Source: an uncultured Clostridia bacterium (lineage in GTDB: Bacteria; Bacillota; Clostridia; UBA1381). Taken from it: a DNA stretch of 44,783 nucleotides. The notes beneath the pieces were generated by a model. The model was not told the DNA's origin. It searched no databases and worked only from the letters and a program-made list of their open reading frames with translations. Below, in pieces: positions 2,219 through 38,858 of the stretch (within the stretch, counting starts at the first letter, position 1; the number at the start of each line of letters is the position of its first letter). Location: NCBI GenBank assembly GCA_947626045.1, contig CANQQS010000007.1:1-44783 (forward strand). Reading direction: 5' to 3'. The position numbers and the translations under genes are program-made.

Positions 2219-2242
2219 CGAATTGTAAGGGGTTGGTGTATT

Positions 2243-3445: not shown

Positions 3446-3475
3446 ATTAATTATTTATTGAGAAAGGAGATTTAC

Positions 3476-3685: not shown

Positions 3686-3726
3686 AAAATCCCCCGACCG
3701 CGCCAACGGTCGAGGAATTGAAATAG
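3684..3726. repeat. 43-bp direct repeat, copy B
   Basis: Second copy of the repeat at 3403-3445. It again starts inside the stop codon of the preceding gene. The stem CCCCGACCG / CGGTCGAGG pairs with one mismatch around a short CGCCAA loop. The A-tract lies on the 5' side, so the intrinsic-terminator orientation is leftward, against the flanking genes. Confidence 0.8.
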
Positions 3727-3776
3727 AGTGTTATGGTATAACACACCTTAATCAAGTCAATTATACCATAGCACTC
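3726..3776. repeat. 16-bp inverted repeat upstream of the integrase gene
   Basis: GAGTGTTATGGTATAA (3726-3741) is mirrored by TTATACCATAGCACTC (3761-3776) with one mismatch and a 19-nt loop. The right arm ends 31 bp before the integrase ATG. It could be an operator, an RNA hairpin in the integrase leader or an arm site for recombination proteins. It has no terminator-like U-tract. Confidence 0.65.
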
Positions 3777-3807
3777 CGAAAAAATCAAGTAAAGGAGTGT
3801 TATTTTT

Positions 3808-5016: not shown

Positions 5017-5030
5017 CTATGCGGTTTGTT
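5003..5030. terminator. 28-bp perfect palindrome acting as terminator at the element-tRNA junction
   Basis: Two 14-nt arms pair perfectly about the centre 5016/5017 (core AAACCGCATAGCTATGCGGTTT). Leftward, the stem is followed by TTTTTCTG-type sequence and would end the tRNA-Ala transcript. Rightward, it is followed by CTCGTTTT and may end the integrase transcript. The integrase TAG lies inside the left arm. Confidence 0.8.
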
Positions 5031-5037
5031 CTCGTTT

Positions 5038-5113
5038 TGGTGGAGATGAGGGGAATCGAACCCCTGACCTCTTACATGCGAAGCAAGCGCTCTCCCAGCT
5101 GAGCTACACCCCC
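5038..5113 (-). tRNA. tRNA-Ala(CGC)
   Basis: The minus strand folds as a 76-nt cloverleaf with encoded CCA (5038-5040): acceptor GGGGGTG / CATCTCC with two G-U pairs, D-arm GCTC...GAGC, anticodon stem CTTGC/GTAAG with loop TTCGCAT (anticodon CGC, codon GCG) and T-arm AGGGG-TTCGATT-CCCCT. It has its own promoter and a palindromic terminator. Its 3' end faces the integrase gene, so it is the probable integration site and remains intact. Confidence 0.93.
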
Positions 5114-22500: not shown

Positions 22501-25500
22501 CGGGATCGTTCTGCTCGAGAACGTTTCTCTTATCAATCGTCCAGCCCACAAAATGATACGAATTTTCGCCGGTTGACGGTTCGCGTATCGGCAGTATATC
22601 CGCATGGAGCGCGACTGTCGTTCCCGGCAGGTAATCCGCGCTGCTTGTTGTCTTTTCCTCATCGTTATACGTACCGCCGTTATGGTCATATACTATGTGC
22701 CAGAGCTCCTCCGTATAATCCGCCTTGCCGTTGCCGTTCGTGTCTGCCGCCCATACGGCGTACAGCGTCATTATGTTTCCGTCAACCTCGTCCGGCGCGA
22801 ACGTAGTCTCTTTCAGCGCCGCGATACCGCCGCCGTTTGCGCCGGTTGTACCGTCCGCGTTCAATATGCTGTTTTCAGCCGGAGTTTCCGTCAGCAGCGT
22901 GCTGCGCTTATCGTGCGACCAGCCGAGGAACACAGCCTTGTCACGGGTAATATCCGAAGCCTCCTTAACGGTAACAACATCGCCCGCGTCATAACTCGCG
23001 TTATCAATTGGAGCCGTACCCGTACCGCCGTTCAGGTTATATTTAACGTTTCCGGTCTTTTCCGTCCATTGTGCCGTAAGCGTTATATCCTGAGCGGGCA
23101 TCACGAAGCTGTCATTCGCTCTGTACTTGGTAGTATCCGACTCATCGCTGCTCTTCCAGCCGTCAAACGCGCTGTTCGCAAGCATCGGCTCGGTACCGTA
23201 TATTGTCACAATCTCGCCCGGTTCATACTTGTTGCTGTCAATCGGCGGCGGCACCGATATACCGCCGTTCAGCTCATACGTAACGGTATAGAAATCATAG
23301 TCCGGTTTACCGTGACCCGGCGTGCCGTTTTCATCCTCGTCAACCGCGTAAACCGCGTAAACGGTCACGTCTTCGGTTGTAAGGCTTACTTCCTTCTTGA
23401 GGTACGCGTCTATTTCAGACTTTCTGTTTTCCTCTCCGACCGTAATCGGGTCTTTATCTCTTGTCGGCTTAGTTATGCTCCAGCCTACAAATACTTCTCC
23501 GTCATTTCTCGAAAGCTCGCGCGACTCGTTCAGCGTCACTGTTCTCTCGTCAGCAGCGTCGTAGTATACGATTATGTCAGCTGCGCTCGCGTCAGCGCCC
23601 GTGCCGAATTTACCGCCGTTCGCGTTGTAAATCAGTCTTACCTTGCCTTCAAGATAATCAGCCACGCCGTTGCCGTCAACATCGAGCGCCCATACGGCGT
23701 AAACGGTTACTTTACCGTCCTTGTCTGCGTACTCGCTTTGCTGCGGCATGGTAACGTTCGTGATAAGCTCGGGCTGCTCCGCACTCGGAACATTCGACGG
23801 GAGTATGTTCTCCGTCTTTTTCAGCGTCCAGCCCACGAATACAACCGCAGTATCGCCCTGTTTCTCGTGCGTCGGCTTAACGGAGCCGTTAAGGAACGCG
23901 CGCACCGGTTCAATATCTGTGCTTGAATTGTATGTCTGCGCACTTACGGTATAGTCATTATGACCCTGACCCGCGTCAAACGTTCCGCCGTTGTGGTCGT
24001 ATACGATATGCCACTGCTCGTCATAATCCGGTACGTTATTGTTATTCGCGTCAGCCGTCCACAGCGCGTACAGATTCATAACCGTGCTGTTTTCCTCTAC
24101 CGCGAACGCTGTCGTTTCAGCCGTGCCCTTAAGCAGTATATCATCGCCGCTCGGCGCTGCCGTCAGCGGTTCATACTGCTTGTTCTTCGACCAGCCGAGG
24201 AATATATAGCCGGCTCTTGTCGGTATCGGATCAAACTTAACCGTTACATTTGCGCCAAGCTCATATTTGCTTTCGTCCGTCGGAACATCGCCCGTACCGC
24301 CGTTCGCGTGGTAAGCAATTCCGTAATCCGCGCCCCACTGAGCTACAAGCGTAATATCCGCGCCCATTTTATCCTTGGGAACGAACGCATTATCGCCGCC
24401 GTACTTATAGATTGTATCATCGCCGCCTTTAATCTTCCAGCCGAGGAACGTGTAACCCGCTCTTACAGGCTCGCGTCCGGGGATATTATAGTCAACGCCC
24501 TTGAGAACGGTTGCATTGGCGGGCATAGTGTCCGGCTGTACCTGTGTGCCTGCCGGCGCGCTGTCGTTCGCTTCAAATGTCACGCTGATATGCTGACCTT
24601 CCTCATAGTCCGCTGTGCCGTCACCGTTTTCATCAGCTGCCCAAACAGCGTAGAGGTTCATGATTACGCCGCCTGTTTCGGGTGCGTAGTCGATTGTATC
24701 TCCTGTTTTACTATAACCCGTATCCGCGTCTTTTGCCGTAACCAAAGCCTTCGGCTCATTTACCGACCAGCCGAGGAATACGGCATTGCCGCGCGACATT
24801 GTGCCTGCTGCCGCAAGTGTAACGGTCTTTGTTTCGGTAACGCTGTCATCCTCATTCACAAGATAATATACATTATCCTCACCCGACTTGGTGCTCTTAG
24901 CGTAGAGATTACTATTCTCGGGAACTGTTCCCGTACCGCCGTTCAAATGGTATCTTACCATGTAGCGGTCACTGTCAATCCACTGCGCCACAAACTTAAC
25001 ATCGCGTTCCGGCATGGTGTACTTGCTGTTATGCTCACTGTCCGGCATATATACCGAACCGTCACTGCCGTCTACTCCCGTATCCTTCCAGCCTACGAAG
25101 CTGAATCCCGTGTACTCGGGCGCGGGAGCCAAGTCAACCAAATCACCGGGCTCGTGACCGTCTGTGTGTATATCGGTCGGCGCAGTACCTGTTACCGCAG
25201 TACCGCCCGCCGTACCTAAATCATACGTAACCTTATGCTTATTATAGTCGGGAACGCCGTTCGGCTTATCATATGTGCCATCCGTATCGCCGTTGCCCCA
25301 CTCGTCCTTCGCGTATACCGCGTAAACGGTAAGCTCCGCCTGATTTGCGGTCACGTTTGCTATATTATCCTTACAGAATCCGGCTGTGTCGGTCGGATCT
25401 GTCGTCACCGCATTATTCGGGCTGCCTGTCGGCTTTATTGTAGTCCAGCCTACAAATACCTCTTTGTCGCCTCTCGTCGGCTTAAAGCTCTCATTAAGTG

Positions 25501-28500
25501 TAATCGTGCCGTTCTCTGTCGGTCTTTCAAGGTATCTTATAATATCGTCTTTACCGCCGCCAAATTCGCCGCCGTCAAGGTTATAGATAAGACGCATCTT
25601 GCCTTCCTGATAATCGGGAACGCCGTCATTGTCGTTATCTGTCGCCCAAACCGCGTAAACAGGATAGTAGCCGTTTTCATCTCCATGCTTATACTCGGCT
25701 TTATTCCAATCCGCCACCTTCGGCATTCTGACATAATCCACAAGCTTCTCTGCCAGCGTACTCTCTTCATCCGCACTGAGCGCCGCCTTAACAGGTGTCG
25801 CCGCAGTTCCTTCCGCGTATGATTTTTCAGTTGTCCAGCCCGCGAATGTTACGGGAACGCCGCCTATAGCTGTATGTGTCGGTTTAACGGCGTTGTTTAA
25901 GAATACCATGTCACCGTCACCCACGTTGGGACTTGATGGATACGTAAGCGCGCTTATTGTGTAATCTGTTCTTCCCTGATGAGCGTCGAACGTACCGCCG
26001 TTATGGTCATACAGAATATGCCACTGCTCGTCATAATCCGGCGTACCGTTCTTATTCGCGTCAACCGCCCATACCGCGTAGAATATCATATACGAGTCGT
26101 TATCAGGACTGAGCGCAAACGGAATCTTACTTCCGCCCGCAAGGATACTGCCGTTTAACTCCTCTTTCTTTTCTTTCGTCGTAACGGGATCCTGTGCCTC
26201 ATGCGCCGTCCAGCCGAGGAACGCATAACCGACTCTTGTCGGTATGGTATTATCAATAGTTACTTCATCGTTAATCTTGAATGTCTTGCTTTTATCAACC
26301 GCCAGAGCGCCCGTGCCGCCGTTCGCGTTATACGATACGTGATACGCCGCTTCCCACGTTGCCGTCAGCGTTATGTCCGCACTGACATTTTCGATTTTGT
26401 CGCCCGGATCATACGTATGTCCCGCGCCGTCACTCCAATTATCGAATGTGTAGCCCGTTCTCGACGGAGTTACATTCGGGATAGTGTAGTTTAATCCCTT
26501 AAGCACCTGAGCGGCGGGAGGCATATTTGCAACATCCTTAGAATCCGCCGCGTCTGTTTCAAGAACACCGTCCGCATACTTAATATTAAGCTTTGTTTCC
26601 TCATAATCCGGCTTACTGTCACCCGCGGACTCGTTTTCGTTTATCGCCCATACCGCATACAGGTTCATTATTCTGCCGTCTTTTTCGGGCTTAAACTCGG
26701 GGGCGTTGGCTGATGTGTAAACAATACCCTCTGCCGGCGCGCTTGTAAATACATCATGCGGCTCTATGCTCCAGCCGAGGAACACAGCATTTGTGCGCGT
26801 CGGTTTGCTTTCGGGAATTACGGCTTTATAATACGGGGCGCCGTCCTTCATAATATAATACTTATCTTCTACGCCTTCTTCCTTAACATACTTCTCGGAA
26901 TCCGCAATCGCACCCGTGCCGCCGTTAAGGTTGTATCTTACGATATATCCGTCGCTTTCGATCCACTGCGCCGTAAACGTAACATTGCGCTCCGGCATGG
27001 TGTACTTTCCGCTATGCGTACTATCCGGAACATATACCGAGCCGTCGCCGTCGTCCTTCCAACCGACAAATTCATAACCGTCTCTTGCGGGAGCCGTCTG
27101 CAGGTCAACCTCGTCACCCGGCTCATGGAAATCATGTTTATCCTTAATATCATCTCCGCTATAATCGGTGTAGTCGCCCAAATTATATGTAACCGTCCAT
27201 CTGTTATAGTCCGGCACACCGTTGCCCGCCGTATCTGTCTCGCCGTTCTTCATTTCATCAACCGCGTATACGGCATAAACGGTCACATCGGTTTTGTTAA
27301 GTTCAACACTCGTCTTAAGATAAGCGTCTATTTCTGATTTTGTACTTGTCGCCGGAATTGGATCTACATGACCGTCCTCACCCGGCTTTGTTATGCTCCA
27401 GCCGACGAATACCACATTATTACTGCCGCCTTTGCGTTCAGGTCTGCGCTCATTGTTAAGCTGAACCGTCCGTCCGCTTTCCACAGCATCATAGTAAACA
27501 ATAATATTTTCTTCGCTGTCGCCGAGCTTACCGCCGTTCAAGTCATAGATAAGGCGAACCTTGCCTTCCAGATAATCGGCAATATCATTATTGTCATTGT
27601 CCTGAGCGTATACCGCATAAACCGTCTTTGTTCCCGCCTCGTCGCTATCATCACCAAATGTTACCGTCTCGGTCAGAACGCTTGCATCGGGTTCTGTCGT
27701 GTATACTGCTTCGGGCTTTTTCTCCGACCAGCCGATAAACGTCATTCCCGGGGTTTTAACAGGCTTAACACTCCTAACAAGATATACCGTCGCGCCGGAT
27801 ATATAGCTCTGATCCTTAACTTCTTTTGTCTGCGGAGTACCATCCGTTTCACCGTTGATAGTATGATCTTCACCGGCATCGTAAACAAGCGTCCATGGAT
27901 CTTCCGAATAATCCGGCTTACCGTTCTTATTCACGTCAACCGCCCATACGGCGTAGAAAATCATATATGTGTCGTTATCGGGACTGAGCGTGAACGTCGG
28001 CTTTGTTTCGCTATCTCCGACCTTATACATCTTAATATCATTCGGGCCTGTTCCTTTGCCCTCAAGCAGTTTAGTTTCCGCTTCCTTAGTAGTTACGGGA
28101 TCAGCCGCATAATGCGCTGTCCAGCCGAGGAAGGTATATCCGTCACGTGAAAGTCCCGTCGGATCATCAAGCGTTACTGTTCCCTCTCCGTCCTTGGCAT
28201 AGCTGTCGCTATGTTCCGGCACCGTTCCCGTACCATAGTTTGCTCTGTAAACTACGCCGTACGCCGCTGCCCACTGGGCAACAAGCGTGACAGTCTCGCC
28301 CTTGTTTAGTTTACCTGCCGGTACAACGCTTGTTCCACCAGTATATCTATAGTTTGTTTCATCGCCGTCAATCTTCCAGCCGGTAAATCTATATCCCGTT
28401 CTTGACGGCTCGATATTAGATATGGTGTAATTCTCCGCAGGGTTCACCGAAACAGTCGGAGGCAGGTTGGTTACGCCGCTCGGATCCCCTTCAACACCGT

Positions 28501-31500
28501 CATCATAAACTATAGTGCAAAGTCCGTCTATATAATCAGCCTGATCGTTATTATCCGCGTCAAGCGCCCATACCGCGTAAAGCGTCATGGTATCAGTGCC
28601 AGTATTTACCGCAAACGGAGTTGTTTTACCTGCCGTTAATACGCTGCCTTCCGCAGGCGCACTTGTAAGCAGTGTGCGCTGATCATGCGACCAACCAAGG
28701 AATACCGCGCCTTCAACCGCTGTTTCCGAGTCTGCAGGCTTAGTATACGTCAGCTTGCCGTCACCCGCGATTGCTTCTATCGTCACCGTTTCGCCCGGAG
28801 CGTACTTCTTACTATCCGTCGGAAGTGTGCCGGTAATGCCTAAATCTGCGGTAAGTCCAAGAGCGGTATGGTTATTATCATAAACAACCGTTCCCTTCTT
28901 TTCCTCCCACTGCGCCGTAACCGTTACGTCCTCATCGGGCATAACAAACGTACCGCCCGGAAGGAGCAGAGCGCCGCTCTCATTCGTCGGGTCTTTCCAA
29001 CCCTTGAAACTGTAACCCTCGCGCTCGGGGGTCTTATCTTCAATAGTTATAACCTCACCCGGAGCAGCAAACGGTATATCGCTTGGCATAGGACTAAGCG
29101 ACGTGCCGCTGTCGCCGTCGTCAAACGTTACTTTGTGGTCGTCATAGTCCGGATTGCCGTTGCCTTTACCGTCACGGTTGGTAGGATCACCCTTTTCGTC
29201 CACGGCGTAAACCGCGTAAACGGTTACGTTTTCCTCCTGAATGTCAATCTTTTCAAGCAAATCAGTCGGTTTTGAAGAAACAGCATCTGCTTTTCTTTCC
29301 TTGCTCCAACCGATAAATACTTCTTGTTTTCCGCCGCGCGGCTCGGGGTGATAATTCGGGTTCGGAGTAATCTCGCCTCTTTTCTTGTCATAATAGGCAA
29401 CTCTTTCTATATCACCGCTATAGCTGCCATCACCTGCTTTTGTTCCGTTATTATAGTTATACGTCAGCTTTACCTTGCTTTCGAGATAATCCGCCTCGCC
29501 GTTACTGTTTTCATCCACAGCCCATACCGCGTAAACGTTATGTGATCTTGTGGTTTCATCATCATTTTTCGGCGGCTCATCGGGCATGGTTATTTTGTCC
29601 TCAATAAGTTCAGGCACAGTTGTCCCTTCCTTATCTATGATTGCGGGATTTTCGCTTGTTGTCCAACCGACAAATACAACCTTATGCGAATCGGAATCAT
29701 CATGCGTAAGCTTTTTCTTTTCTTCTTCAGTGCTATACTTAAGCTCCGCTGTTGTTTTTGCAAGATAGCCCTTATCGTCCGTGCCTTTGTCAAGAGGAAT
29801 TTCGCCGTCGGTATATGTGCCGCCGTTCAGATTGTACTTAACGAACCATGTTGTTTCCTCATAGTCGGGCGTGTCGTTCTTATTTACATCTTCCGCCCAA
29901 ACCGCGAAAATGTTAAGGACATTACCGTATATACTTCCGCTATATGTATCATATGTCAATGTACCCTCGCCAGTATCGGTGCCGGGTATAATCCCCGCCG
30001 CAGTTTCTGCTTCAGTGTTTTTAACCAAGTCAGTCAGATGTAAACTCCAACCGAGGAATATTGCGCCCTCGCGTTTGAGAGCTTTAGTGGAAGTATCGTG
30101 AACCATTCCATCTTTATTCGCCTGAACAGTTATTTCTTTTTCATCTTCCTGTACATACATCTCCGTATCGATCGGCACATTACCGCTTGTCGCGTCGTTC
30201 GGACGGTAGATAACCATAAAGTTGGTCTTTACCTCCGGCTTCCAAATCGCGTAGAGAACATCGGCGGTTGCGGATTTGTTGAAGCTTGCTTTGTCTGTAC
30301 CAAACTTATATAAACCGCTGTAATCGTAATCATCTCCTGATTTTTCCACTGTCACCTTGTTCAGGCTCCAGCCCATAAATTCATAACCCTCGCGTTCGGG
30401 GTCTGCGCTGCCTGCCTGTATTATAGAAACCGATGCGCCTGACTCATATGTGCCCGTATCAGTCGGCATATTTTTAACGTCCGCCTGACCGCCCGCGTTA
30501 GCGTCATAGATTACCTGCGAATAGTCGGGTGTACCGTCGCCGGGCTTGTCACTGCTCGTGCCGCCGAGCATATCCACAGCCCAAACGGCGTAGAGATCCA
30601 TAACACGGTCACCGTCTGCATCCTCAAATTTGAATGTTTCTGTTGTACCGTCTTTCTTGTACAATGGAGTAGGCACATCTGTCGTTTGTGTAATCAGACC
30701 TTTTTGTTCGGTCGTCCAGCCGAGGAATACCGCGTAATCGCGCGTGGGTTCATCGGCTGCAACCGTTATATCGTCTGTGGACACACTGCCGTCAGTGTTT
30801 GCGGCAACAGACTGATCCGCCGGTACAGTACCGCCGGTATTACCGTTGCCATGGTAAACAACGGCATAGCCCTCGGGCGTCCACTTTGCCACGAGTATAT
30901 CAAGCTTGTCGTTCTTTTTGAATGTTTGGTTGTCACCGTCCGACTTGTAAACATTTCCTGACGTATCGTCCTTCAGCGTCCAGCCGTCAAACTTCCAGCC
31001 TTTTCTTGTCGGCTCGCTCTCACCGTAATCGGTCGGCTTAACCTTTACGTCATCGCCCGCATTATAGGAACCATTGTCAACGGGTATATCTTTAGCGTCC
31101 GTCACGCCTTCGCCGGCTTCGTACTTCACCTGGAAATAATCCGGAATACCGTCGCCCGCGGGATCGTCACCGTTGCTGCCGGGGTACTCATCCGCCGCCC
31201 ATACGGCATACACCTTCGGATCGGTTCCTGTGGTGTCAACCGTTGTTTCAACTAGAGCGTCTACTGCCGCCTTTGTGGCTGCAGGAATTGTGCCTGTATT
31301 ATTTGGAGCTGTACTCCAGCCGACAAGCGTCGCGCCCTCTAATTTCGGGACATTATCATCCTTCGGCTCGGTATCTGCGATAGGCCAGTTTGTCGCCTTT
31401 TCAACATCGCTTGCAACATACTGTTCGTTGCTGTCCTTGTCTTTACCGCCGTTAAAATTGTATGTCAAATCAACCGTATTGACGCCGGTTATGCTCGTTT

Positions 31501-34500
31501 CGGGAATACCGTCGCCGTTCGCGTCCGCCGCCCATACGGCGTGGAAATGGAGATCTGTTTCACCCATTTCTGCGGTTGATGATGGATCCTCAAGCGATGC
31601 CAACACTATATCCGCCGGCATTTTTTCGGGTATGTAATGCGCGTCGTCTTTGAGGGTACTCAAATCAATCGTACCCTTTACATTTTCCGGAGTTTCCGTG
31701 CTGTCGCTCACGTACCAGCCCATGAACACGGCTTTGTCTTTTTTAAGGATATTGCCGGGTTTGCCGTTGCCGTTGTTCTCCTTTACGGGCACATTAAAGC
31801 CCTCGACATAGTAATGAGCATCGCCGTTACCGTCGTCCGCGCCGAGCTGCGGCGCAACGCCCGAATCCGCGTCATTGTCGTGGTAGTACGCGGTATGGAA
31901 GCAGTCAATCGGGATTTCAACGGCGTTTGTGCCGATGAGATGACCGTCAACGTCGCCGTAGCTGTACTCTATAACAAAGCTGCCGTTTCCTGTTATTCCC
32001 GTTACGTTTAACTCATAAGGCTGCGAACCGTCATATTTTCCGCTGCTCTGGAGCTGTGGCTTTGTCACTGTCACCGCAGCATTTTTAAAGTACTCATTCG
32101 ATTCGTTTTCCACTCCGCTCTTTGCGTTTATAATTGTAAACGCGGAATTTTCCATAATAAGCGCAAGATTAATTTGCGCCGTTCCGCCTTTAACCGTTAT
32201 AGGATCGCCACCGCCTCCGGGAGTTATTGCCGTTTCTTTCTTTTGGTCCGGCTTGCCCTCTATTGCAATTGTCGGATGATAATGGTCTGTATCCTCGGGG
32301 TCGGACAGCACAGGAATGTACGCGTCCTCGTATTCAACCGTTGACGCTTTTTCACTATCCTGTTTCGCTCCGAACGGTGCGTTGTTATACACCTCCGGCG
32401 CCGCCTGTCTGAACGTGTCCGTTCTTTCGGGATAACCCGCGTCTGTCTCAAGATACCTGTACTGCTGTATATGTATCGTGTCAATGTTCTCGTTGCCCGG
32501 TGATGTTTTTGTACCTGATGAGTTGCCGGAGAACACATCGTTCGGAATGTTTTCAACGTGTCTTGGGAAAACGACCGTTCCCTGTATATCGTTAAGCGGC
32601 ACATTGTTTTTGTCATCAGTACCGTAATTTCCGAACGCGTAGCTTCCCATTGTTTTGAGGTTTGCGGGAAGCGTAAGCTCTTTAAGTCCGCAGTTACTGA
32701 ACGCGCGGTATCTTATACTTTCAACGCTGTCGGGTATTTTGATCTTTCCGTCTTCTATAGTTGTTCTGTAAAAAACGGAATCGTTTATTCTAACAACGCC
32801 GTCGGGTATTGTGATATTTTTTATATGTACCCTGCCGTCATGATACGCATTAAACAATGGTCGATTCTCGTCATACTGACCCACGCCCGTTATTTTTATT
32901 TTCTCCGAATCTGTGCCGTCGCTCTTTTTATAGCTGAGCTCCGATGGTATTGTAATTTCTTTGCTGGCAATCTTTGTTTTATAGTTACTGTCTGTAACAT
33001 TTTCCTTATTATTAATGTCATATCCTATAACATCACCCGTAAGGCGGTTAAACGTCCATATTCCGTCTTCCTCCACCGACGTTACATTGGTCTTGTCAAA
33101 TGTACCGTCCTTATATTCTATATCCGCGTCATACGCGCCGAACGGCGCGGACGCCGCCGCCGGGTCATCGTCGTCCGACGTGCCCGTTACATATATTTTT
33201 TCGTCAGTGTCAATAAACTGACCTTTCATACTTATTTTTGTAAGTACTTTACACTTGGAAAAAGCGCCGCTGTGAATTTGCTTTATATCACATGTCTGCT
33301 CTTCGGCGGTTTTGCGGAGGATTACATAGTCGATCCATGCGCCTTGGTTATAACTGCCTCCATTCAACCATCCCGAAATGCCTATCTTTTCTTCGCTGTT
33401 TAATGTAAACTCTTTTATTATTTCACTGTTTGCACTGCTGCCGTCATTCTTCTTTATCAGCTTCAGCAGACAGTTGTCCGCGCTCTTGTCTGCGTCCTGT
33501 GTTGCTGTTCTTATCTCGACTCCTCTCTCATTCTTCGCTATATAATAAGCGGTCAGGCTGTATGTTCCCTTTGTATACTCATTTTCTCCGAGATATGTAA
33601 CCGAGTTTTGGGATTTCGTGGCTGAAAATTTGCCGCCGGAATATTTGCCCTTGTCAGCAGCTGCAACATCAGGCGCTGGCGTTTCTCCCGTGCCTTCTGT
33701 TTCATTCTTGGCATTATCCGCGCTTAACGTCTCCGCCTCCGCGAAGTATACTATTTCACTGTCGTATTCATAATCGGTTATTTCGCCCGTGTAATGACCG
33801 TTTCCGTCTCCATCGTCAGACCATTTGAGCGATACGGTAGGAGCGTATGTTGATCCGGAGTAAACATAATATCTTCCGTTAAGCTCCACTACCTTGCTTA
33901 GACTTACCTGTGCTTCAGCTTCGGGTACGGGGTCTGTCTCTGTCGGCTTATCAATCTCGCCCTGTATGTAACCGATTATCTCTTCACCCGCTTTTTGAGT
34001 GATTGTGTAATATGTGTTACCATCTTCAATAGGCGTAAGCGCGCCCGGCTCAGTCGGAGGTTCGTACGTCGGAGCGGGAGACGGTTCTGCCGCGTCACGC
34101 GTGTTGAATGTAACCGTCGTAAGAGCGTCACATTCTCTGAACGCCCACTGGTTTACTTCTTGTACTGTACTCGGAAGCTCGATCTTTCCAAGCGAGGTAC
34201 ATTTTCTGAAAGCGTAAGTTCCAACCGATGTGACACCCTCCGGTATATTTAATACATCCGTTAGATTTGTGGCATTCCAAAACGCGCCGTACGGAATTTT
34301 ATCCATACCGCCTTTGATGTTTGTAAAATCTATTTTTTTAATCGCCACGTTGCCCGGGCGGCTGCCGAACGCGCCCTCCGCTATACCCTTGACATCATAT
34401 TCCGTAGAGGTTTCCTCGTCAAAGGTATTTTCAGTCCATGTGCCGACCCTTATCTTTTCCGGCAATGTAATTTCCACAAGATTCACATCCGCCGGAGCGC

Positions 34501-35602
34501 CGTCCGGCTTTTTAGTATCATCCAAAATTGTAAATCCATCATACGGATTATTAAATGGGTCTCCGTTAAGTGTTTTATTGCTGTAATACCAGTAATTTAT
34601 ATTATCTGCTTTTGTTGTAGAGTCTATTGTGTACTTATGTTCGCTTGTGTCATATTTTGCCGAGCCTATTTTAAGACCGTAAATAAGGCCCGTATCTTTG
34701 TCAAATATGTACGGGGAGTTGTTGTCATATCCGTGATTTGTGCCCCAATATATAACCGCGTCAATGCCGCCCCATGGCGCGCCCGTAAGTTCAAATCCCT
34801 TTGTAACTTCGGAGCAGTCAACAAAGCAGCTTTTCGCCACATCGGAAAAAGCCTGACTGCCTATGCTTGTTATATCATTGGGAAGCTTTATATATTTCAG
34901 GGCTTTGCTGCCGTAAAAAGCCTGCATACCTATTGTTGATAATGCCGTAGCACTCATATCCAGCTCTTCGAGCGAAGTACAGTTCCTGAACGCGTTCGCG
35001 CCGATCGAAGTAAGCGACGTAAGCTCGTTAATATTTATGGTTTTCAGCGAGGAAGCTCCGCTGAACGCGCCGTCGCCGATTGTCGTGACTTCTTTGGGCA
35101 AAGTGATCGTGCTGAACAAATTTGAAGCAAACGCATTCGCGCCGATTGTTGTAATTTTGCACGGAGGCTCCTCATCGTCATCGCCTTCCAGTCCGCGGAA
35201 GCTCACCTCCGTCAGTCCGCAGCTTGCAAACGCGCTGTCATCTATCGCCGTCACATTATACGTCTTGCCGCCGTTCGACTCGGAAAGTGTTACATAAGAC
35301 GGAATTTTAATGCTTGTTTCCTTTGATTGGCGGTTAAATTCCTTGATCGAACACGTATCTGCGCCTGTTATCTGAATAGTGAAAAAGTGTGTAATAGACG
35401 CGCTTTTATCATTAACCGCGTTGGTTGTGTCCGCGCTTGTAAGCGTCACAACATCGCCCACCTGCGGTTCGCCCGCGCGCGGCGTTGCTTCGCCTGCCGT
35501 CTCGGTCGGTGCGGCGAAAGCCACACTCAAATTGGGCAATAAGCTTACACTCATTGCCGCAGCCAATAGCATTGCTGTAATTCTTCTCCTTCTCTGTTTC
35601 AT
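19535..35602 (-). CDS. Giant SLH-anchored surface protein with LRRs and InlB B-repeats, about 5,355 aa
   Basis: One uninterrupted 16-kb frame. The ATG at 35602 (MKQRRRRITAMLLAAAMS) was preferred over a GTG at 35611 on ribosome-site spacing (AAAGGGAAG). After a signal peptide come BspA-type leucine-rich repeats in three blocks (about 60-270, 390-520 and 780-1050), with a beta-sandwich-like insert between the second and third. About 36 InlB/Listeria-Bacteroides B-repeats of roughly 107 aa follow (about 1240-5110), each ending in AVFLGWS-type and YAVWA motifs. A Gly/Ser linker and three SLH motifs (TVRPNNNITRAE, EFAPEAPITRAE, TFRPDRFITRAE; about 5145-5330) end the protein. SLH domains bind pyruvylated secondary wall polymer, so the C-terminus is wall-bound and the N-terminal LRRs are projected outward. 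An adhesin or long stalk is likely; the ligand is unknown. It has its own promoter and terminator. Confidence 0.9.
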   Translation of the reverse strand: MKQRRRRITAMLLAAAMSVSLLPNLSVAFAAPTETAGEATPRAGEPQVGDVVTLTSADTTNAVNDKSASITHFFTIQITGADTCSIKEFNRQSKETSIKIPSYVTLSESNGGKTYNVTAIDDSAFASCGLTEVSFRGLEGDDDEEPPCKITTIGANAFASNLFSTITLPKEVTTIGDGAFSGASSLKTININELTSLTSIGANAFRNCTSLEELDMSATALSTIGMQAFYGSKALKYIKLPNDITSIGSQAFSDVAKSCFVDCSEVTKGFELTGAPWGGIDAVIYWGTNHGYDNNSPYIFDKDTGLIYGLKIGSAKYDTSEHKYTIDSTTKADNINYWYYSNKTLNGDPFNNPYDGFTILDDTKKPDGAPADVNLVEITLPEKIRVGTWTENTFDEETSTEYDVKGIAEGAFGSRPGNVAIKKIDFTNIKGGMDKIPYGAFWNATNLTDVLNIPEGVTSVGTYAFRKCTSLGKIELPSTVQEVNQWAFRECDALTTVTFNTRDAAEPSPAPTYEPPTEPGALTPIEDGNTYYTITQKAGEEIIGYIQGEIDKPTETDPVPEAEAQVSLSKVVELNGRYYVYSGSTYAPTVSLKWSDDGDGNGHYTGEITDYEYDSEIVYFAEAETLSADNAKNETEGTGETPAPDVAAADKGKYSGGKFSATKSQNSVTYLGENEYTKGTYSLTAYYIAKNERGVEIRTATQDADKSADNCLLKLIKKNDGSSANSEIIKEFTLNSEEKIGISGWLNGGSYNQGAWIDYVILRKTAEEQTCDIKQIHSGAFSKCKVLTKISMKGQFIDTDEKIYVTGTSDDDDPAAASAPFGAYDADIEYKDGTFDKTNVTSVEEDGIWTFNRLTGDVIGYDINNKENVTDSNYKTKIASKEITIPSELSYKKSDGTDSEKIKITGVGQYDENRPLFNAYHDGRVHIKNITIPDGVVRINDSVFYRTTIEDGKIKIPDSVESIRYRAFSNCGLKELTLPANLKTMGSYAFGNYGTDDKNNVPLNDIQGTVVFPRHVENIPNDVFSGNSSGTKTSPGNENIDTIHIQQYRYLETDAGYPERTDTFRQAAPEVYNNAPFGAKQDSEKASTVEYEDAYIPVLSDPEDTDHYHPTIAIEGKPDQKKETAITPGGGGDPITVKGGTAQINLALIMENSAFTIINAKSGVENESNEYFKNAAVTVTKPQLQSSGKYDGSQPYELNVTGITGNGSFVIEYSYGDVDGHLIGTNAVEIPIDCFHTAYYHDNDADSGVAPQLGADDGNGDAHYYVEGFNVPVKENNGNGKPGNILKKDKAVFMGWYVSDSTETPENVKGTIDLSTLKDDAHYIPEKMPADIVLASLEDPSSTAEMGETDLHFHAVWAADANGDGIPETSITGVNTVDLTYNFNGGKDKDSNEQYVASDVEKATNWPIADTEPKDDNVPKLEGATLVGWSTAPNNTGTIPAATKAAVDALVETTVDTTGTDPKVYAVWAADEYPGSNGDDPAGDGIPDYFQVKYEAGEGVTDAKDIPVDNGSYNAGDDVKVKPTDYGESEPTRKGWKFDGWTLKDDTSGNVYKSDGDNQTFKKNDKLDILVAKWTPEGYAVVYHGNGNTGGTVPADQSVAANTDGSVSTDDITVAADEPTRDYAVFLGWTTEQKGLITQTTDVPTPLYKKDGTTETFKFEDADGDRVMDLYAVWAVDMLGGTSSDKPGDGTPDYSQVIYDANAGGQADVKNMPTDTGTYESGASVSIIQAGSADPEREGYEFMGWSLNKVTVEKSGDDYDYSGLYKFGTDKASFNKSATADVLYAIWKPEVKTNFMVIYRPNDATSGNVPIDTEMYVQEDEKEITVQANKDGMVHDTSTKALKREGAIFLGWSLHLTDLVKNTEAETAAGIIPGTDTGEGTLTYDTYSGSIYGNVLNIFAVWAEDVNKNDTPDYEETTWFVKYNLNGGTYTDGEIPLDKGTDDKGYLAKTTAELKYSTEEEKKKLTHDDSDSHKVVFVGWTTSENPAIIDKEGTTVPELIEDKITMPDEPPKNDDETTRSHNVYAVWAVDENSNGEADYLESKVKLTYNYNNGTKAGDGSYSGDIERVAYYDKKRGEITPNPNYHPEPRGGKQEVFIGWSKERKADAVSSKPTDLLEKIDIQEENVTVYAVYAVDEKGDPTNRDGKGNGNPDYDDHKVTFDDGDSGTSLSPMPSDIPFAAPGEVITIEDKTPEREGYSFKGWKDPTNESGALLLPGGTFVMPDEDVTVTAQWEEKKGTVVYDNNHTALGLTADLGITGTLPTDSKKYAPGETVTIEAIAGDGKLTYTKPADSETAVEGAVFLGWSHDQRTLLTSAPAEGSVLTAGKTTPFAVNTGTDTMTLYAVWALDADNNDQADYIDGLCTIVYDDGVEGDPSGVTNLPPTVSVNPAENYTISNIEPSRTGYRFTGWKIDGDETNYRYTGGTSVVPAGKLNKGETVTLVAQWAAAYGVVYRANYGTGTVPEHSDSYAKDGEGTVTLDDPTGLSRDGYTFLGWTAHYAADPVTTKEAETKLLEGKGTGPNDIKMYKVGDSETKPTFTLSPDNDTYMIFYAVWAVDVNKNGKPDYSEDPWTLVYDAGEDHTINGETDGTPQTKEVKDQSYISGATVYLVRSVKPVKTPGMTFIGWSEKKPEAVYTTEPDASVLTETVTFGDDSDEAGTKTVYAVYAQDNDNNDIADYLEGKVRLIYDLNGGKLGDSEENIIVYYDAVESGRTVQLNNERRPERKGGSNNVVFVGWSITKPGEDGHVDPIPATSTKSEIDAYLKTSVELNKTDVTVYAVYAVDEMKNGETDTAGNGVPDYNRWTVTYNLGDYTDYSGDDIKDKHDFHEPGDEVDLQTAPARDGYEFVGWKDDGDGSVYVPDSTHSGKYTMPERNVTFTAQWIESDGYIVRYNLNGGTGAIADSEKYVKEEGVEDKYYIMKDGAPYYKAVIPESKPTRTNAVFLGWSIEPHDVFTSAPAEGIVYTSANAPEFKPEKDGRIMNLYAVWAINENESAGDSKPDYEETKLNIKYADGVLETDAADSKDVANMPPAAQVLKGLNYTIPNVTPSRTGYTFDNWSDGAGHTYDPGDKIENVSADITLTATWEAAYHVSYNANGGTGALAVDKSKTFKINDEVTIDNTIPTRVGYAFLGWTAHEAQDPVTTKEKKEELNGSILAGGSKIPFALSPDNDSYMIFYAVWAVDANKNGTPDYDEQWHILYDHNGGTFDAHQGRTDYTISALTYPSSPNVGDGDMVFLNNAVKPTHTAIGGVPVTFAGWTTEKSYAEGTAATPVKAALSADEESTLAEKLVDYVRMPKVADWNKAEYKHGDENGYYPVYAVWATDNDNDGVPDYQEGKMRLIYNLDGGEFGGGKDDIIRYLERPTENGTITLNESFKPTRGDKEVFVGWTTIKPTGSPNNAVTTDPTDTAGFCKDNIANVTANQAELTVYAVYAKDEWGNGDTDGTYDKPNGVPDYNKHKVTYDLGTAGGTAVTGTAPTDIHTDGHEPGDLVDLAPAPEYTGFSFVGWKDTGVDGSDGSVYMPDSEHNSKYTMPERDVKFVAQWIDSDRYMVRYHLNGGTGTVPENSNLYAKSTKSGEDNVYYLVNEDDSVTETKTVTLAAAGTMSRGNAVFLGWSVNEPKALVTAKDADTGYSKTGDTIDYAPETGGVIMNLYAVWAADENGDGTADYEEGQHISVTFEANDSAPAGTQVQPDTMPANATVLKGVDYNIPGREPVRAGYTFLGWKIKGGDDTIYKYGGDNAFVPKDKMGADITLVAQWGADYGIAYHANGGTGDVPTDESKYELGANVTVKFDPIPTRAGYIFLGWSKNKQYEPLTAAPSGDDILLKGTAETTAFAVEENSTVMNLYALWTADANNNNVPDYDEQWHIVYDHNGGTFDAGQGHNDYTVSAQTYNSSTDIEPVRAFLNGSVKPTHEKQGDTAVVFVGWTLKKTENILPSNVPSAEQPELITNVTMPQQSEYADKDGKVTVYAVWALDVDGNGVADYLEGKVRLIYNANGGKFGTGADASAADIIVYYDAADERTVTLNESRELSRNDGEVFVGWSITKPTRDKDPITVGEENRKSEIDAYLKKEVSLTTEDVTVYAVYAVDEDENGTPGHGKPDYDFYTVTYELNGGISVPPPIDSNKYEPGEIVTIYGTEPMLANSAFDGWKSSDESDTTKYRANDSFVMPAQDITLTAQWTEKTGNVKYNLNGGTGTAPIDNASYDAGDVVTVKEASDITRDKAVFLGWSHDKRSTLLTETPAENSILNADGTTGANGGGIAALKETTFAPDEVDGNIMTLYAVWAADTNGNGKADYTEELWHIVYDHNGGTYNDEEKTTSSADYLPGTTVALHADILPIREPSTGENSYHFVGWTIDKRNVLEQNDPAPTDDDLITQVTIPTENTDDNIVTVYALWAIDTIGDGAPDYQDGKVKLIYNFDGGTFSGRQEIDRYLDASEEDRTITLNETFKPVRGDKEVFVGWTSTVPPTEHRAAATAEPEDLLKNGLVIKSTDTVVTVYAVYAVDEWGNGDEDGTYDKPNGNPDYNKHKVTYDLGYYPAYQDVPVPGEAPTDAHNVTGGHEPGDFVDLQTPPTVDGVIFEGWKDIDGDDSVYMPGDDGRKYTMPDREVEFVAQWIKGDRYTVKYNANDVTSGDVPTDDTEYILEETTQTPELTKYFYFISSGENAGTRYYNVNVKDAGTLKKDNAVFVGWTLTPLDPITLDPDKEESKVTYYTEATTDLAYAPEEGGKIMNLYALWAVDSDGDGVADYAEGKYAIEYKNGVNEGDADYENPQIKNMPENEDVLPNEDYTIPNYIPTRPHYTFECWTDGSGKTYKPGDKIESSAITGTVTLTAQWLPDNTVKYHANNGAGTPPVDDNRYADGINITLAGGEGLTMEGHVFIGWTLHESYPVQTEKPTITFYEAGAQIPYERDKNTTVMNVYALWAVDENGNGNPDYYDLTLSFADGVKETDSDYNAGISPVRSLPQSIEGLKPGVSVTLPDQKPTRVNYNFMGWIDPANPSKLLEPGDSLVMPDTNVTLTASWEKKSGGSGSHGSGGSSGGSGGGSTQYTLKYETNGGSEIADERYSSGKEVTLDKTPTREGYVFDGWYSDKGLTEKAEKIKMTKNTTVYAKWVEEKPDDTKDPSGTGSGSSSSDILNTDDHFAYVMGYEDSTVRPNNNITRAETVAIFYRLLKADVRNSNMSSTNKFEDVSADNWYNVSVSTMANVGIVSGRSDTEFAPEAPITRAEFAAICARFDDSANVEPSGFSDIDGHWAKPEVERAAALGWVSGYEDGTFRPDRFITRAEAMTMINRVLGRIPESVDDLSDGMTVWSDNSDSTAWFYLAVQEATNGHYAEKKNDTYEKWTKVDQSVTWDK
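20270..31900 (-). repeat. InlB-type B-repeat array with six-module super-repeat
   Basis: Protein-level repeats of about 107 aa, encoded in about 11.6 kb. Most modules begin with a ...YNLNGG... strand, include AVFLGW or VFVGWT, and end in YAVWA. Two out of three junctions then carry an acidic D-x-N-x-NG-xxDY linker. Modules recur in a fixed order of six types, visible as anchors near 29870, 27910, 26030, 24030 and 22710 (minus strand, 5' to 3'). The spacing is about 1.9-2.0 kb, except for one cycle of about 1.3 kb. Confidence 0.85.
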
Positions 35603-35670
35603 GAACTCCACTTCCCTTTCTTGTTACATTTTACCGAAAATCACATAAAAATACTATTGTATAATATACT

Positions 35671-35891: not shown

Positions 35892-37328
35892 TTACTTGAA
35901 CAGCACCTTTATATGCGTGTCGTCCAATCTTGCAATCACTCTGTAGCCGCTCTCGCTCGCAGTAGCCGTGCCGCCGTCACTTACGGTGCAATTACCATTC
36001 ACCTTGCACGTGCCGTCGTCGATTACAACAAGCTGACCCATCATTCCGACTATGCCCCATTCCTTGCGTTCCTCGCGAGGAATGTACTTCTCGTCGGGGT
36101 TATAGTCGGGGTTCACAATCGGCTCCACCGCGTCGCACGCGTCATGAATGAGATTGCCCTCATCGTCGTACTCTGCGTCGTGATGAACCGTGTGCGTAAG
36201 CACCCTGCCGAAAATATCCGTGAGCCACATTCCCTGCCATGTGTCGGCATGGTCATTGCCGATTACGCCCGGCGCTGCCGAAATTGCGCCGAGTATGTAA
36301 TCGTCGTCCGCGTTCGCAAGGCGTATCTTGTCGCCGTCGAGCGTCACGAACAAGCCTGTCCTGTCAACGCTGTCGGGGTTGCCATCGAGCCACTCAAAGA
36401 ACTCCGCATAATCCGCGCCGCTGGAGTGGAACGATTTCAAGCCGTACACGTCACCGGAATATGCCACACGAAAAGCATTGGATCTTTTTTCAGTACCGCT
36501 ACCGTTGCCGATAAAAAACGCGTCACCATCTGTACCGACCAATGCGTTACCTTTCGTTCCTTCTATCGCGTAATGACCGAATTTTGTCTGAGCTTCAAGC
36601 CCTATATTCTCATTGCCAAAAGTAAACGCCGCAACTTCTGATGCTTGACAGCCAATACCACCGGCAAATGACCGTGCGCCGGAAGCTTTGCAAACGTAAC
36701 CAAAAGCAAAAGAAGTAGCTCCGTCTGCTGTGCAACTATGACCGTTAGCGATAAACGACTCTGAACCTGTGCCGGCTTTACCGACTTTGCTGTTGAGCTG
36801 CATCTGCACATTGCTCGTGACGCCGTCGAGATAACCAAGTTCCGTCGAGGTGACGTCTGAAACAGCCACCTTACCGCTGCTGTTGGATATCAGCGCTCTA
36901 TTTGCGGTGAGGTTGCTGCTCGTTATCGTAGACGCCGCGCCGGTGATTGAAGCATTGTCGCCTTTTGCTCCTGCCGGACCTGTCGGACCTTGCGGACCTG
37001 TTGCACCCTGCGCGCCTTTTATGCAGCCCTTGTACGTCCACTGGGCGCTTGTGCCGCTGCCCGCGGTCGTACATTCGTAAACGTTGCCGTTTGACGTGTT
37101 TAAATATTTGTCGCCGAGCTTGACGAGCGGGCAGCCGCTGTAGCTGTACGCGCCCGACATGCCGCTTATCGACGTGCCTGTCAGCCACTGACTGCCGCTC
37201 ATGTTGACGTTTCCGCTGCCTGTGCCGACAAACAGCTCATGCGTGTCTGTCGTGTACGCCGGCTCGCCCTGTGTGAGTGTCGGGAGTTTTGATTTAATAC
37301 CACGTCTTAGCTGTATTCTGTTCGCCAT
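35892..37328 (-). CDS. Phage tail-fibre protein with collagen-like stretch and peptidase G2 autocleavage domain, 478 aa
   Basis: The N-terminus (MANRIQLRRGIKSKLPTLTQGEPAYTTDTHELFVGTG) matches the Mtd/tail-fibre N-terminal module that docks fibres to a baseplate. A collagen-like segment (GAQGATGPQGPTGPAGAKG, about 104-122), a trimer-prone helix and linker, and YadA-head-like repeats (SFAFGYVCKASGARSFAGG, about 205-245) follow. The region from about 295 to the end (SSGADYAEFFEWLDGNP, LFVTLDGDKIRLAN, DDYILGAISAAPGVIGN) fits the peptidase G2/IMC self-cleaving chaperone domain found at fibre C-termini. This module assembles the trimer and then cuts itself. GGAGGG ribosome site; 12 bp after the companion fibre gene. 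It lacks any neighbouring baseplate, tape or capsid genes. Confidence 0.85.
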   Translation of the reverse strand: MANRIQLRRGIKSKLPTLTQGEPAYTTDTHELFVGTGSGNVNMSGSQWLTGTSISGMSGAYSYSGCPLVKLGDKYLNTSNGNVYECTTAGSGTSAQWTYKGCIKGAQGATGPQGPTGPAGAKGDNASITGAASTITSSNLTANRALISNSSGKVAVSDVTSTELGYLDGVTSNVQMQLNSKVGKAGTGSESFIANGHSCTADGATSFAFGYVCKASGARSFAGGIGCQASEVAAFTFGNENIGLEAQTKFGHYAIEGTKGNALVGTDGDAFFIGNGSGTEKRSNAFRVAYSGDVYGLKSFHSSGADYAEFFEWLDGNPDSVDRTGLFVTLDGDKIRLANADDDYILGAISAAPGVIGNDHADTWQGMWLTDIFGRVLTHTVHHDAEYDDEGNLIHDACDAVEPIVNPDYNPDEKYIPREERKEWGIVGMMGQLVVIDDGTCKVNGNCTVSDGGTATASESGYRVIARLDDTHIKVLFK

Positions 37329-37340
37329 ATCAAACCCTCC

Positions 37341-37910
37341 TTAAAACGTGCCGCCGTCAAGCGTGCTGCTTGAGTCAAGCTTCGCGTTCCACGTTGACTT
37401 TTCCGTGTCGCTCACAAAGCGGTGCGTAGAGTCCTGCGTAATCATCGACGCCGCGTGGCTTGAAGGGTGTGTGTAGTTGTTCGCGTTCGCGGCGATACCC
37501 GCGAGTTTTGTCTTTTCGGTGTTCGTAAAGTCCGCCTCGGAAAGACCCTTGCCCGCCACCTTGTCAACCTTATTGCCGATTGCAGAGTTCAGCGTTTCCA
37601 CAACGCCCTCGTTCTTCTGCATCTCGTCGGCTATCTCTTTGAGCGTGTCGAGAGTGGTCGGCGCGCCGTTTATGAGTTCGGTGATTTTCGCCGCGATCTT
37701 TTCGTCGGCGTAACGGTTCGCCTGTGCGAGCGCGGACGCAGCCGCTGCGGCGACATCGGCTGTGACGAGTATTTTCGTTCCGTTCGCACCGCCTACATAG
37801 AGCTGCGCCGTGCTTTTGTCCTCGTTGTACGCGATTGCTGCCTCGCCTTCCGCAAGCGTGACGCTGCCGATGTTTGACGCAAGTCCTCTTTTAAGTAGTA
37901 TTTTTGCCAT
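37341..37910 (-). CDS. Phage tail-fibre-like protein, 189 aa
   Basis: Start at the ATG at 37910 (MAKILLKRG) with AAGGAGG upstream; the longer 205-codon form begins before the ribosome site. The N-terminal 45 residues (LLKRGLASNIGSVTLAEGEAAIAYNEDKSTAQLYVG) share the fibre docking pattern with the next gene. Residues of about 60-110 are an Ala-rich coiled-coil-like helix (AAAAASALAQANRYADEKIAAKITEL), followed by tail-fibre repeats with KVDKVAGKGLSEADFTNTEKTKLAGIA and THPSSH motifs. It is probably a trimeric fibre segment. It is the first gene from a promoter whose spacer contains an operator half of the divergent S24 repressor. Confidence 0.82.
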   Translation of the reverse strand: MAKILLKRGLASNIGSVTLAEGEAAIAYNEDKSTAQLYVGGANGTKILVTADVAAAAASALAQANRYADEKIAAKITELINGAPTTLDTLKEIADEMQKNEGVVETLNSAIGNKVDKVAGKGLSEADFTNTEKTKLAGIAANANNYTHPSSHAASMITQDSTHRFVSDTEKSTWNAKLDSSSTLDGGTF

Positions 37911-38005
37911 ATTATCCTCCTTGTTTACGTATGGCTCCCCATTCCATACATTACACATTTTTACCGGAAGATAGTCTGCAATACGAGTTTTTCGGATTGG
38001 TTTAT

Positions 38006-38034
38006 ATTATATACTATTTTCTCGAATTTGTCAA
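38006..38034 (-). promoter_or_regulatory. Promoter of the tail-fibre operon
   Basis: Minus-strand TTGACA (38029-38034), 17-nt spacer, TATAAT (38006-38011): full consensus. The spacer includes TTCTCGAATT (38019-38028), one arm of the inverted repeat. Confidence 0.88.
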
Positions 38035-38060
38035 GTGTTTTTTGAAAAATAATTCGAGAA
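38019..38060. promoter_or_regulatory. Operator inverted repeat between tail-fibre genes and repressor
   Basis: TTCTCGAATT (38019-38028) and AATTCGAGAA (38051-38060) are exact inverted copies 22 nt apart. Looser TTCGTA/TACGAA copies flank the rightward -35. Binding to the left arm would block the tail-fibre promoter; binding to the right arm would affect the repressor promoter. Confidence 0.7.
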
Positions 38061-38075
38061 ATTCGTATTTTATGT

Positions 38076-38104
38076 TTGACATTACGAAAAAAAGATGATA
38101 CTAT
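38076..38104 (+). promoter_or_regulatory. Promoter of the S24 repressor gene
   Basis: TTGACA (38076-38081), 17-nt spacer, TACTAT (38099-38104). The GTG start follows 23 bp later. Confidence 0.8.
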
Positions 38105-38126
38105 TATCACAAAGGGAGTGATTACT

Positions 38127-38858
38127 GTGGCTTTAAGAATACGCGAAGCGCGCGAGCGTCTGGGCATAACACAGAAGCTGCTCGCCGACAAGCTGAAAAT
38201 AAAGCAGACAACCTTTAACGGATACGAAACCGGCGCGCATGACCCCAAATCCGAAACGCTTGTTAAAATTGCGGAATATTGCGGCACAACGGTCGATTTT
38301 CTTGTGGGGCTTGCCGATAATCCCGAGAAAAGCGACGGCGAAAACGGCGTGCTGTCCGTCAAGGAGCGGGAGCATATCGAAACTTACAGACGGCTGGATG
38401 CGCACGGCAAAGAAATTGTGGATATAGTTATGCAAAAAGAAGCGCAGCGCATCGGCTCGGAAAAACGCGCCGAAATAATACCGATGTACCGCTTCCCGTT
38501 TTATGACATTCCCGCATCCGCCGGAACGGGCGAGCCTCTCGACATATCCGACGCCGAAACGGCAGCGCTGAGTGTTAAGCCGCCGCGCGGCACGGACTAT
38601 ATTCTGCGCATTTCCGGCGACAGTATGGAACCCGATTATAAAAGCGGCGATTATGTTTATGTCAAAAAAACCGAAGAACTTGAATATGATGAAACCGGCA
38701 TTTTTTTCGACGACGGCAATGTATATATGAAGAAGTACACTTCGGAGGGGCTTTTGTCGCTCAATACGAAATATAAAATTATTGAGAAAAATGACAATAT
38801 CCGTTGTCTCGGTAAAGTTATCGGTAAGGTTAAAGGCAAGGTTGAAATCGACGGATAG
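38127..38858 (+). CDS. Xre-S24 (LexA/CI-type) autocleaving repressor, 243 aa
   Basis: The start is the GTG at 38127 (ALRIREARERL), preceded by AAGGGAG; the ATG at 38076 lies in the -35 region. Residues 1-62 form an Xre HTH domain and about 118-243 an S24 peptidase domain. Cleavage site A132-G133 (SAGTGEP), catalytic S166 in SGDSMEP and a Lys at about 202-203 (NVYMKKY) are all visible, so RecA-stimulated self-cleavage is expected. The divergent genes encode tail fibres, and operator arms overlap both promoters. The simple model is a repressor that frees the fibre operon on DNA damage. It resembles phage CI/HdiR-type regulators more than housekeeping LexA, whose HTH is winged. Confidence 0.9.
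   Translation: MALRIREARERLGITQKLLADKLKIKQTTFNGYETGAHDPKSETLVKIAEYCGTTVDFLVGLADNPEKSDGENGVLSVKEREHIETYRRLDAHGKEIVDIVMQKEAQRIGSEKRAEIIPMYRFPFYDIPASAGTGEPLDISDAETAALSVKPPRGTDYILRISGDSMEPDYKSGDYVYVKKTEELEYDETGIFFDDGNVYMKKYTSEGLLSLNTKYKIIEKNDNIRCLGKVIGKVKGKVEIDG

Follow-up and report, generated by a model that had tools for sequence, protein, structure and literature searches.

Why should two phage-type tail-fibre genes stand by themselves in a bacterial chromosome, opposite a repressor gene of the S24 (CI/LexA) type? The question is raised by a 44,783-nucleotide (nt) contig (CANQQS010000007.1) from an uncultured Clostridia bacterium, contig C7 of a genome (G000) that was assembled to 2.6 Mb in 182 contigs; the whole contig is referred to here as the window. 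The two fibre genes of the cassette were designated A and B, and T denotes a related fibre gene of about 245 amino acids (aa) that lies elsewhere. On balance, we favour the view that the cassette is a remote locus for receptor binding and belongs to a chromosomally fixed, siphovirus-type particle that resembles a gene transfer agent (GTA) or PBSX. The particle is most likely inherited vertically, and in this genome the cassette has most likely been rewired to a private repressor. The following features made up the cassette.

35892-37328, minus strand: fibre gene B, 478 aa, with Mtd_N, a collagen-like region, a variable middle and a C-terminal Peptidase_G2 autoprocessing domain
37341-37910, minus strand: fibre gene A, 189 aa, a fibre-type protein with a C-terminal DGGTF
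37908-37994, minus strand: conserved 5' leader of fibre gene A, 87 nt
38034-38006, minus strand: fibre promoter, TTGACA-17-TATAAT, a 12 of 12 consensus match
38018-38061, strandless: possible operator, an 11-bp inverted repeat with arms at 38018-38028 and 38051-38061
38076-38104, plus strand: repressor promoter, TTGACA-17-TACTAT
38127-38858, plus strand: S24 (CI/LexA-type) repressor gene, 243 aa, with a GTG start (corrected to 38127)
35880-35850, minus strand: terminator-like hairpin, a 13-bp stem and a T run, directly 3' of fibre gene B

The fibre genes and the divergent S24 repressor gene

Fibre gene A, fibre gene B and the divergent S24 gene were real and intact. The start of A was corrected to the ATG at 37910, which is preceded by a perfect Shine-Dalgarno sequence, AAGGAGGATAAT; the upstream ATG at 37958 in the list of open reading frames (ORFs) was for that reason the poorer start. 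The Peptidase_G2 domain at the C-terminus of fibre B scored far above the Pfam cut-off (E = 3.2e-42, 144.9 bits against a cut-off of 25), and this region resembled the structures of phage phi29 pre-neck appendages, such as 3gqh. The ends of fibre B were conserved and its middle was variable; its predicted structure had a mean pLDDT of 33.5 and was set aside. An Rfam match to Leu_leader over the 3' end of gene B (20.9 bits against a threshold of 50) was taken as chance.

The window repressor carried HTH_3 (5.9e-13) and Peptidase_S24 (2e-12) domains and was phage-like by PHROGs (phrog_4). As the initial annotation had described, a cleavage-type Ala-Gly (PASAGTG) and the Ser (GDSM) and Lys (VYMKKY) that characterise the S24 class were recognised by eye, motifs that suggest a self-cleaving repressor which would be inducible by DNA damage. 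The full-consensus fibre promoter of that annotation was confirmed. The operator arm that it had placed in the promoter spacer was present, but the 11-bp inverted repeat to which the arm belongs was matched or beaten by 48 of 500 shuffles and so was not above chance; the candidate operator is therefore plausible but unproved.

The fibre-side proteins T and A (window 37341-37346) and a baseplate-type protein end in DGG-x-F/Y (L347:3075; L017:1085-1597; others). Across 13 loci, 15 of 177 ORFs had this ending, one of which encoded a non-tail protein, and it may possibly be a docking tag.

Solitary fibre cassettes in related species

The comparison set comprised 70 genomes of the family, including 16 of the same genus (G000 and 15 others). 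Fibre A was matched in 13 of the 70 (E ≤ 1e-3) and fibre B in 19 (E ≤ 1e-10), and prophage copies were told apart from solitary copies by reading the gene neighbourhoods. Solitary fibre loci were present in G026 (C9), in G024 (C1, syntenic with C13 of G028), in G017 (C351, where T, A and B form one operon) and in G005 (C6, a single fibre of 800 aa). Solitary A-B cassettes in related species lay at differing chromosomal sites and shared the leader, a strong promoter and a hairpin terminator 3' of B like that of the window. Like the window, G024, G026 and G028 had a full consensus promoter and the 87-nt leader ahead of A-B, the leader being 77%, 86% and 78% identical to that of the window, respectively, in spite of the high synonymous divergence of fibre A given below; the distance from leader to promoter was kept. 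Among the loci scanned, the leader occurred only at solitary copies and was absent from prophage copies.

A AUUAUCUUCC-type element in the leader was predicted to be able to pair with the Shine-Dalgarno sequence. The leader was considered as a regulatory RNA and rejected: its folding was unremarkable (single-sequence z of -0.6 to -1.5), G026 favoured a different fold, and only 2 of 17 pairs changed on both sides. Because both covariation and z-scores were weak, it was kept as a conserved leader only.

Secreted copper-amine-oxidase-like proteins (MKRFTLGFIIGG...; assigned by eye) were encoded in one or two copies ahead of the solitary A-B loci of G024, G026 and G028 (L047:6761-8718, L048:10814-11599 and L049:6898-8454), and related genes adjoined fibres in prophages.

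At E ≤ 1e-18, the window S24 repressor matched nothing in the 15 genus genomes other than G000. All of its relatives outside G000 belonged to genus g9 (39-59% identity, 12 genomes); in the 11 loci read they were not beside fibres, and a tie between this repressor type and fibres elsewhere was rejected. No adjacent repressor was found at the solitary loci of G024, G026, G028 and G017. The initial annotation had called the cassette self-contained and had proposed that the conservation of all three genes be checked; a local repressor is indeed present here and the A-B pair recurs in relatives, but the solitary loci of those four genomes have no such neighbour and the S24 gene is not part of what is conserved. 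A scan of viral contigs gave no match with the window repressor and 79 loci with fibre A. A scan of a genome collection with fibre A gave 26 loci, a good number of which were matched only partially and over a short length; the record matching G024 was the only one used (CANQIP010000001.1, uncultured Clostridia bacterium).

A fibre-less head-tail-lysis cluster

A search for operator-like sequences led to a phage structural operon and, divergent from it, a second S24 gene. The encoded repressor had a P22-C2-type helix-turn-helix (HTH) and a LexA-type S24 domain, and the operon comprised terminase, portal, head/capsid, major tail, short tape-measure, Dit, tail endopeptidase, holin and amidase genes (gene families were scanned in G026 and recognised by eye in the other genomes). 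In G000 this cluster was split over contigs C105 and C67 and had no fibre gene; it is the kind of fibre-less prophage or tailocin cluster that the initial annotation had suggested might be found elsewhere in the genome.

The cluster is fixed across a clostridial genus (repressor matched in 14 of 16 genomes) and is also represented by relatives in further genera of this family (repressor matched in 33 of 70 genomes, both at E ≤ 1e-30, and tail endopeptidase in 31 of 70, a count that possibly includes prophage copies). An M16 peptidase gene stood beside the cluster repressor in 13 of the 14 genus matches, the match in G017 being a different S24 gene; in other genera the neighbours differed. The ratio of nonsynonymous to synonymous substitution (dN/dS) in cluster genes was 0.00-0.23. 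Their synonymous distances (dS, 0.04-0.57) bracketed those of the M16 gene (0.15-0.35) and therefore fit vertical inheritance.

As in a GTA, packaging, head and tail genes lay together, no integrase or replication genes were found among the cluster ORFs read (L305-L308, L310-L315 and L346), and the cluster, which was single-copy and about 13 kb long (12.8-14.5 kb in six loci), was below the size of a phage genome; a fixed site and vertical inheritance were seen within the genus only. The capsid and terminase argue that the cluster packages DNA, and its products may assemble, transfer DNA in the role of a GTA and be induced by DNA damage.

No fibre gene followed the endopeptidase in 14 of the 15 genus genomes that encoded this enzyme, the exception being G014, with a T-type gene. 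Outside the genus 14 loci were read, which leave out two further family matches (G036 and G047). A T-type ORF followed the endopeptidase in ten of these, including G002 and G069, where the repressor was not matched and the locus may be a prophage; none followed it in G004, G005, G007 and G008.

Purifying selection was evident on the cluster, T, A and B. Fibre A of the window was at a synonymous distance of 0.88 from that of G026 and 1.06 from that of G024, with a dN/dS of 0.20-0.25 against these solitary copies; for A and B together the values were about 0.9-1.1 (dS) and 0.20-0.28 (dN/dS). Since the dS of the fibre genes exceeded every cluster-gene value and the middle of B was variable, allele exchange is the best explanation, and A-B may act as specificity modules that strains swap with one another.

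Viral contigs with capsids at least 70% identical to that of the cluster were pieces of 4-14 kb; the highest identity was 61% for other viral contigs and 59% for named phages. Among the short IMG/VR "viral" contigs of this kind (L353-L358, capsids 70-81% identical), the five that were read (L353-L356 and L358) look like fragments of the fixed cluster and not like phages.

A half-site at the cluster and at remote fibre genes, and a promoter pattern of solitary fibre genes

GTATCT/AGATAC occurred 27 times within the 260 nt that precede the cluster repressor in 12 genus genomes, compared to 1.32 expected and a maximum of six in 500 shuffle sets, and GTATCT lay in the spacer of all 12 cluster promoters. 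Among the loci included, this half-site was present in 22 of 83 distinct consensus promoters, of which seven preceded solitary fibres, 14 preceded the cluster and one lay elsewhere, a tally that is biased because many of the loci were fetched by pattern.

Sites ahead of A-B in G024, G026 and G028, ahead of T-A-B in G017 and at one further place in G026 served to define a promoter pattern, TTGACAAAAGATAYNNNNTGTGGTATAAT. The pattern, whose half-site GTATCT recurs in the cluster promoter, was found at nine sites in six of the 70 genomes, all ahead of solitary fibre genes, and the reversed control gave none. Five sites preceded a solitary T gene (G000, G023, G024, G026 and G028), the one in G026 having been seen beforehand and the other four being new; the remaining four preceded A-B or T-A-B. 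The site in G000 belonged to gene T on contig C32, which thus keeps the shared promoter. Remote fibres under a matching promoter accompanied 6 of the 14 fibre-less genus clusters (G000, G017, G023, G024, G026 and G028).

T resembled the gene immediately upstream of A in prophages and had no Pfam or PHROG match. Its structural model was a helix about 100 residues long (pLDDT of 83-96 in blocks over most of its length, pTM 0.30), as would be expected of a fibre shaft. In five species, G000 included, the gene had the same metal-binding genes close by (DUF1858-type and HMA-type, assigned by eye). It adjoined a cation-transporter gene in G024, G026 and G028, and was followed at a greater distance by a second amidase gene in G000, G023 and G026, the three loci that were read far enough. 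The T locus (L347:3855-6748; L350; L047) encoded a 767-aa protein without a Pfam match as well as the second Amidase_3 protein, and may perhaps be a second lysis locus. A secreted-type gene in G028 and G024 (L266, L272) had a GATAC-bearing consensus promoter that resembled those of the fibre regulon.

In several other genera the cluster had a promoter of a different type from that with GTATCT, TTGACAAACGAAC...TGTGTGGTATAAT, and a near-identical promoter preceded a remote fibre gene of G008, the cluster of which is fibre-less. This shared promoter is an independent sign of a link between cluster and remote fibre. The cluster promoters of other genera (L295, L294, L284, L292, L293 and L297) and the remote fibre promoter of G008 (L035:577) held CGAAC...TGTG, which we take to be close to the Gram-positive SOS box.

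The cassette as a probable remote receptor-binding locus

Among the roles offered by the initial annotation was that of a fibre module for a tail particle encoded elsewhere, and this is the role that we favour, given the fibre-less cluster in G000 and the half-site common to the cluster and the solitary loci of relatives. The cleavable S24 repressor of the cluster would be inactivated, most likely in the SOS response, and the head-tail genes and remote fibre genes would then be switched on together. T would dock onto the tail tip, A and B would add a receptor-binding fibre, and the holin and amidase would let the particles out. In G000 the A-B promoter has no shared operator and stands opposite a private S24 repressor, an arrangement in which fibre expression could be separate from that of the particle. 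Rewiring is proposed because the window promoter has no GTATCT, its S24 gene is private and T on C32 retains the shared promoter.

A broader proposal is made more tentatively. The clostridial family may have its own siphovirus-type GTA, whose receptor-binding parts would have moved out of the main cluster to form a dispersed, operator-matched regulon in which T is fixed and A-B is mobile and swaps alleles; here one module would have come under a private S24 repressor, separating the choice of DNA recipient from particle production. If this is true, a fixed siphovirus-type cluster whose fibres are detachable and regulated on their own would allow the target range of the particle to be tested gene by gene.

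Several results weigh against a remote receptor-binding locus. The window fibre promoter has no GTATCT half-site, so that in G000 the link between cassette and cluster rests on ancestry, and the A-B promoter of G026 also has no exact half-site. No remote fibre of this type was found for six of the fibre-less genus clusters (G015, G016, G020, G022, G025 and G027), and in G018 and G021 contig ends precluded a judgement. The operator-like search gave 19 forward and 13 control matches, barely above control, and is therefore a lead and not a test. In the fibre A tree, support was weak and solitary and prophage copies were not cleanly separated. Finally, G000 has prophages with A-B pairs, which the cassette could serve instead.

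Alternative explanations

The simple prophage remnant suggested by the initial annotation is unlikely. It would require that a prophage lost the stretch from its repressor and early promoter to the fibres, and then its lysis genes, so that a lytic promoter was fused to A by accident. Although the orientation, with the repressor facing one way and the fibres the other, fits one internal deletion, three other species that lack this repressor have conserved both the leader and its distance from the promoter. The repressor is phage-like and private to G000, and prophages with A-B pairs are present there; nevertheless, a terminator follows B directly, the genes are intact with the low dN/dS given above, and solitary copies recur at several sites.

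Neither decayed genes, nor phage genes nearby, nor an unconserved layout was found. There was no structural or lysis gene among ten window ORFs scanned with PHROGs and three right-flank ORFs scanned with Pfam, scans that left out very large surface proteins and minor overlapping ORFs; within that scope, the fibre pair stands alone, as initially annotated. The flanks had been described as chromosomal-type, which holds for the scanned neighbours, in which no phage structural or lysis gene was detected, but not for the far left of the window, where a phage-type integrase gene (3808-5016) and a CI-like HTH gene (2207-2641) lie beside tRNA-Ala (5038-5113). This stretch (2207-5113) is a mobile element cut off by the start of the contig, and its integrase is about 31 kb away from the cassette. 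The exact window site, empty or prophage-filled, was seen in no related genome; the best genus match of the neighbouring LytTR gene (G016, 63%) sits in unrelated surroundings, and the site is therefore not comparable across species. A surface-type protein of 5358 aa, rich in similar repeats, is encoded at 19535-35611; its start and the end of the cassette are about 240 bp apart.

It is less likely still that the cassette provides alternative fibres in trans for the complete prophages of G000 and not for the fixed cluster. Two more A-B pairs lie at the ends of contigs C118 and C30, and the end of C5 holds a 3' part of B. Upstream of its fibres C30, a myovirus-like prophage, has genes of the terminase, sheath, tape-measure and baseplate types (functions by eye), and ordinary prophages with such fibres therefore occur in this genome. 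The pairs on C30 and C118 are similar to that of the window (A 60-67% identical, the first 90 residues of B 77-79%). However, G026 has solitary T, A and B and no other fibre A match, so that a resident prophage of this fibre type is not needed, and the promoters of the relatives match the cluster and not a prophage.

Three prophage contigs were broken within the same fibre B stretch, STGYFYECITAG (L016:1-276, L017:1-273 and L019:18611-19903); such near-identical repeats may perhaps reflect recent exchange between prophages.

It is highly improbable that the fibres act alone, whether as soluble decoys or as a domesticated adhesin of the cell surface. In favour of this, the genes are solitary, intact and under purifying selection, and in G024, G026 and G028 they come after the copper-amine-oxidase-like proteins, but no secretion or wall-anchoring domain was apparent in A or B, and the half-site common to the T loci and the head-tail-lysis cluster points to a particle.

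Comparison with known systems

To our knowledge, GTAs have hardly been described outside the Alphaproteobacteria. No paper on this element or on solitary fibre regulons was found in the literature covered, with subscription papers and preprints outside its scope. At the level of single proteins, the phi29 pre-neck appendage and other Peptidase_G2 proteins share the C-terminal domain of fibre B; its N-terminus (Mtd_N, collagen-like) and its context differ, and fibre B may cleave itself.

PBSX of Bacillus subtilis is of the defective-prophage type, is chromosomally fixed and has a repressor opposite its structural operon, features that the cluster described here shares; PBSX differs in being contractile and larger and in having its fibres within the cluster. 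PBSX is reported to package 13.4-kb host fragments (PMC12946183).

RcGTA of Rhodobacter capsulatus is similar to the system proposed here in that a head-tail cluster has a distant tail fibre gene. Its regulation is by GafA/CtrA and not by an S24 repressor. It also belongs to another phylum and has fibres of another family. Its hub (Rcc01696) and fibre (Rcc00171) are far apart by gene number (PMC7296036, PMC10218006), and a paper cited there describes the RcGTA genome as multilocus in its title.

A GTA from a gut bacterium, FpGTA of Faecalibacterium, appeared in print only in 2026, and that report mentions GTA-like packaging in gut families beyond Faecalibacterium as well (PMC12946183). There, one operon carries the phage-type head genes, and a second, which in one strain lies about 125 kb away, carries baseplate, tail fibre, receptor-binding and lysis genes; FpGTA is podovirus-like, and particles with about 9 kb of DNA were demonstrated (PMC12946183). 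Both systems have a gut Gram-positive host and, on the reading favoured here, particle genes distributed over separated loci. In contrast to FpGTA, the particle predicted here would have a siphovirus-type tail, with lysis genes in the main cluster and fibres split further. FpGTA (PMC12946183) and RcGTA (PMC7296036, PMC10218006) are its nearest published relatives.

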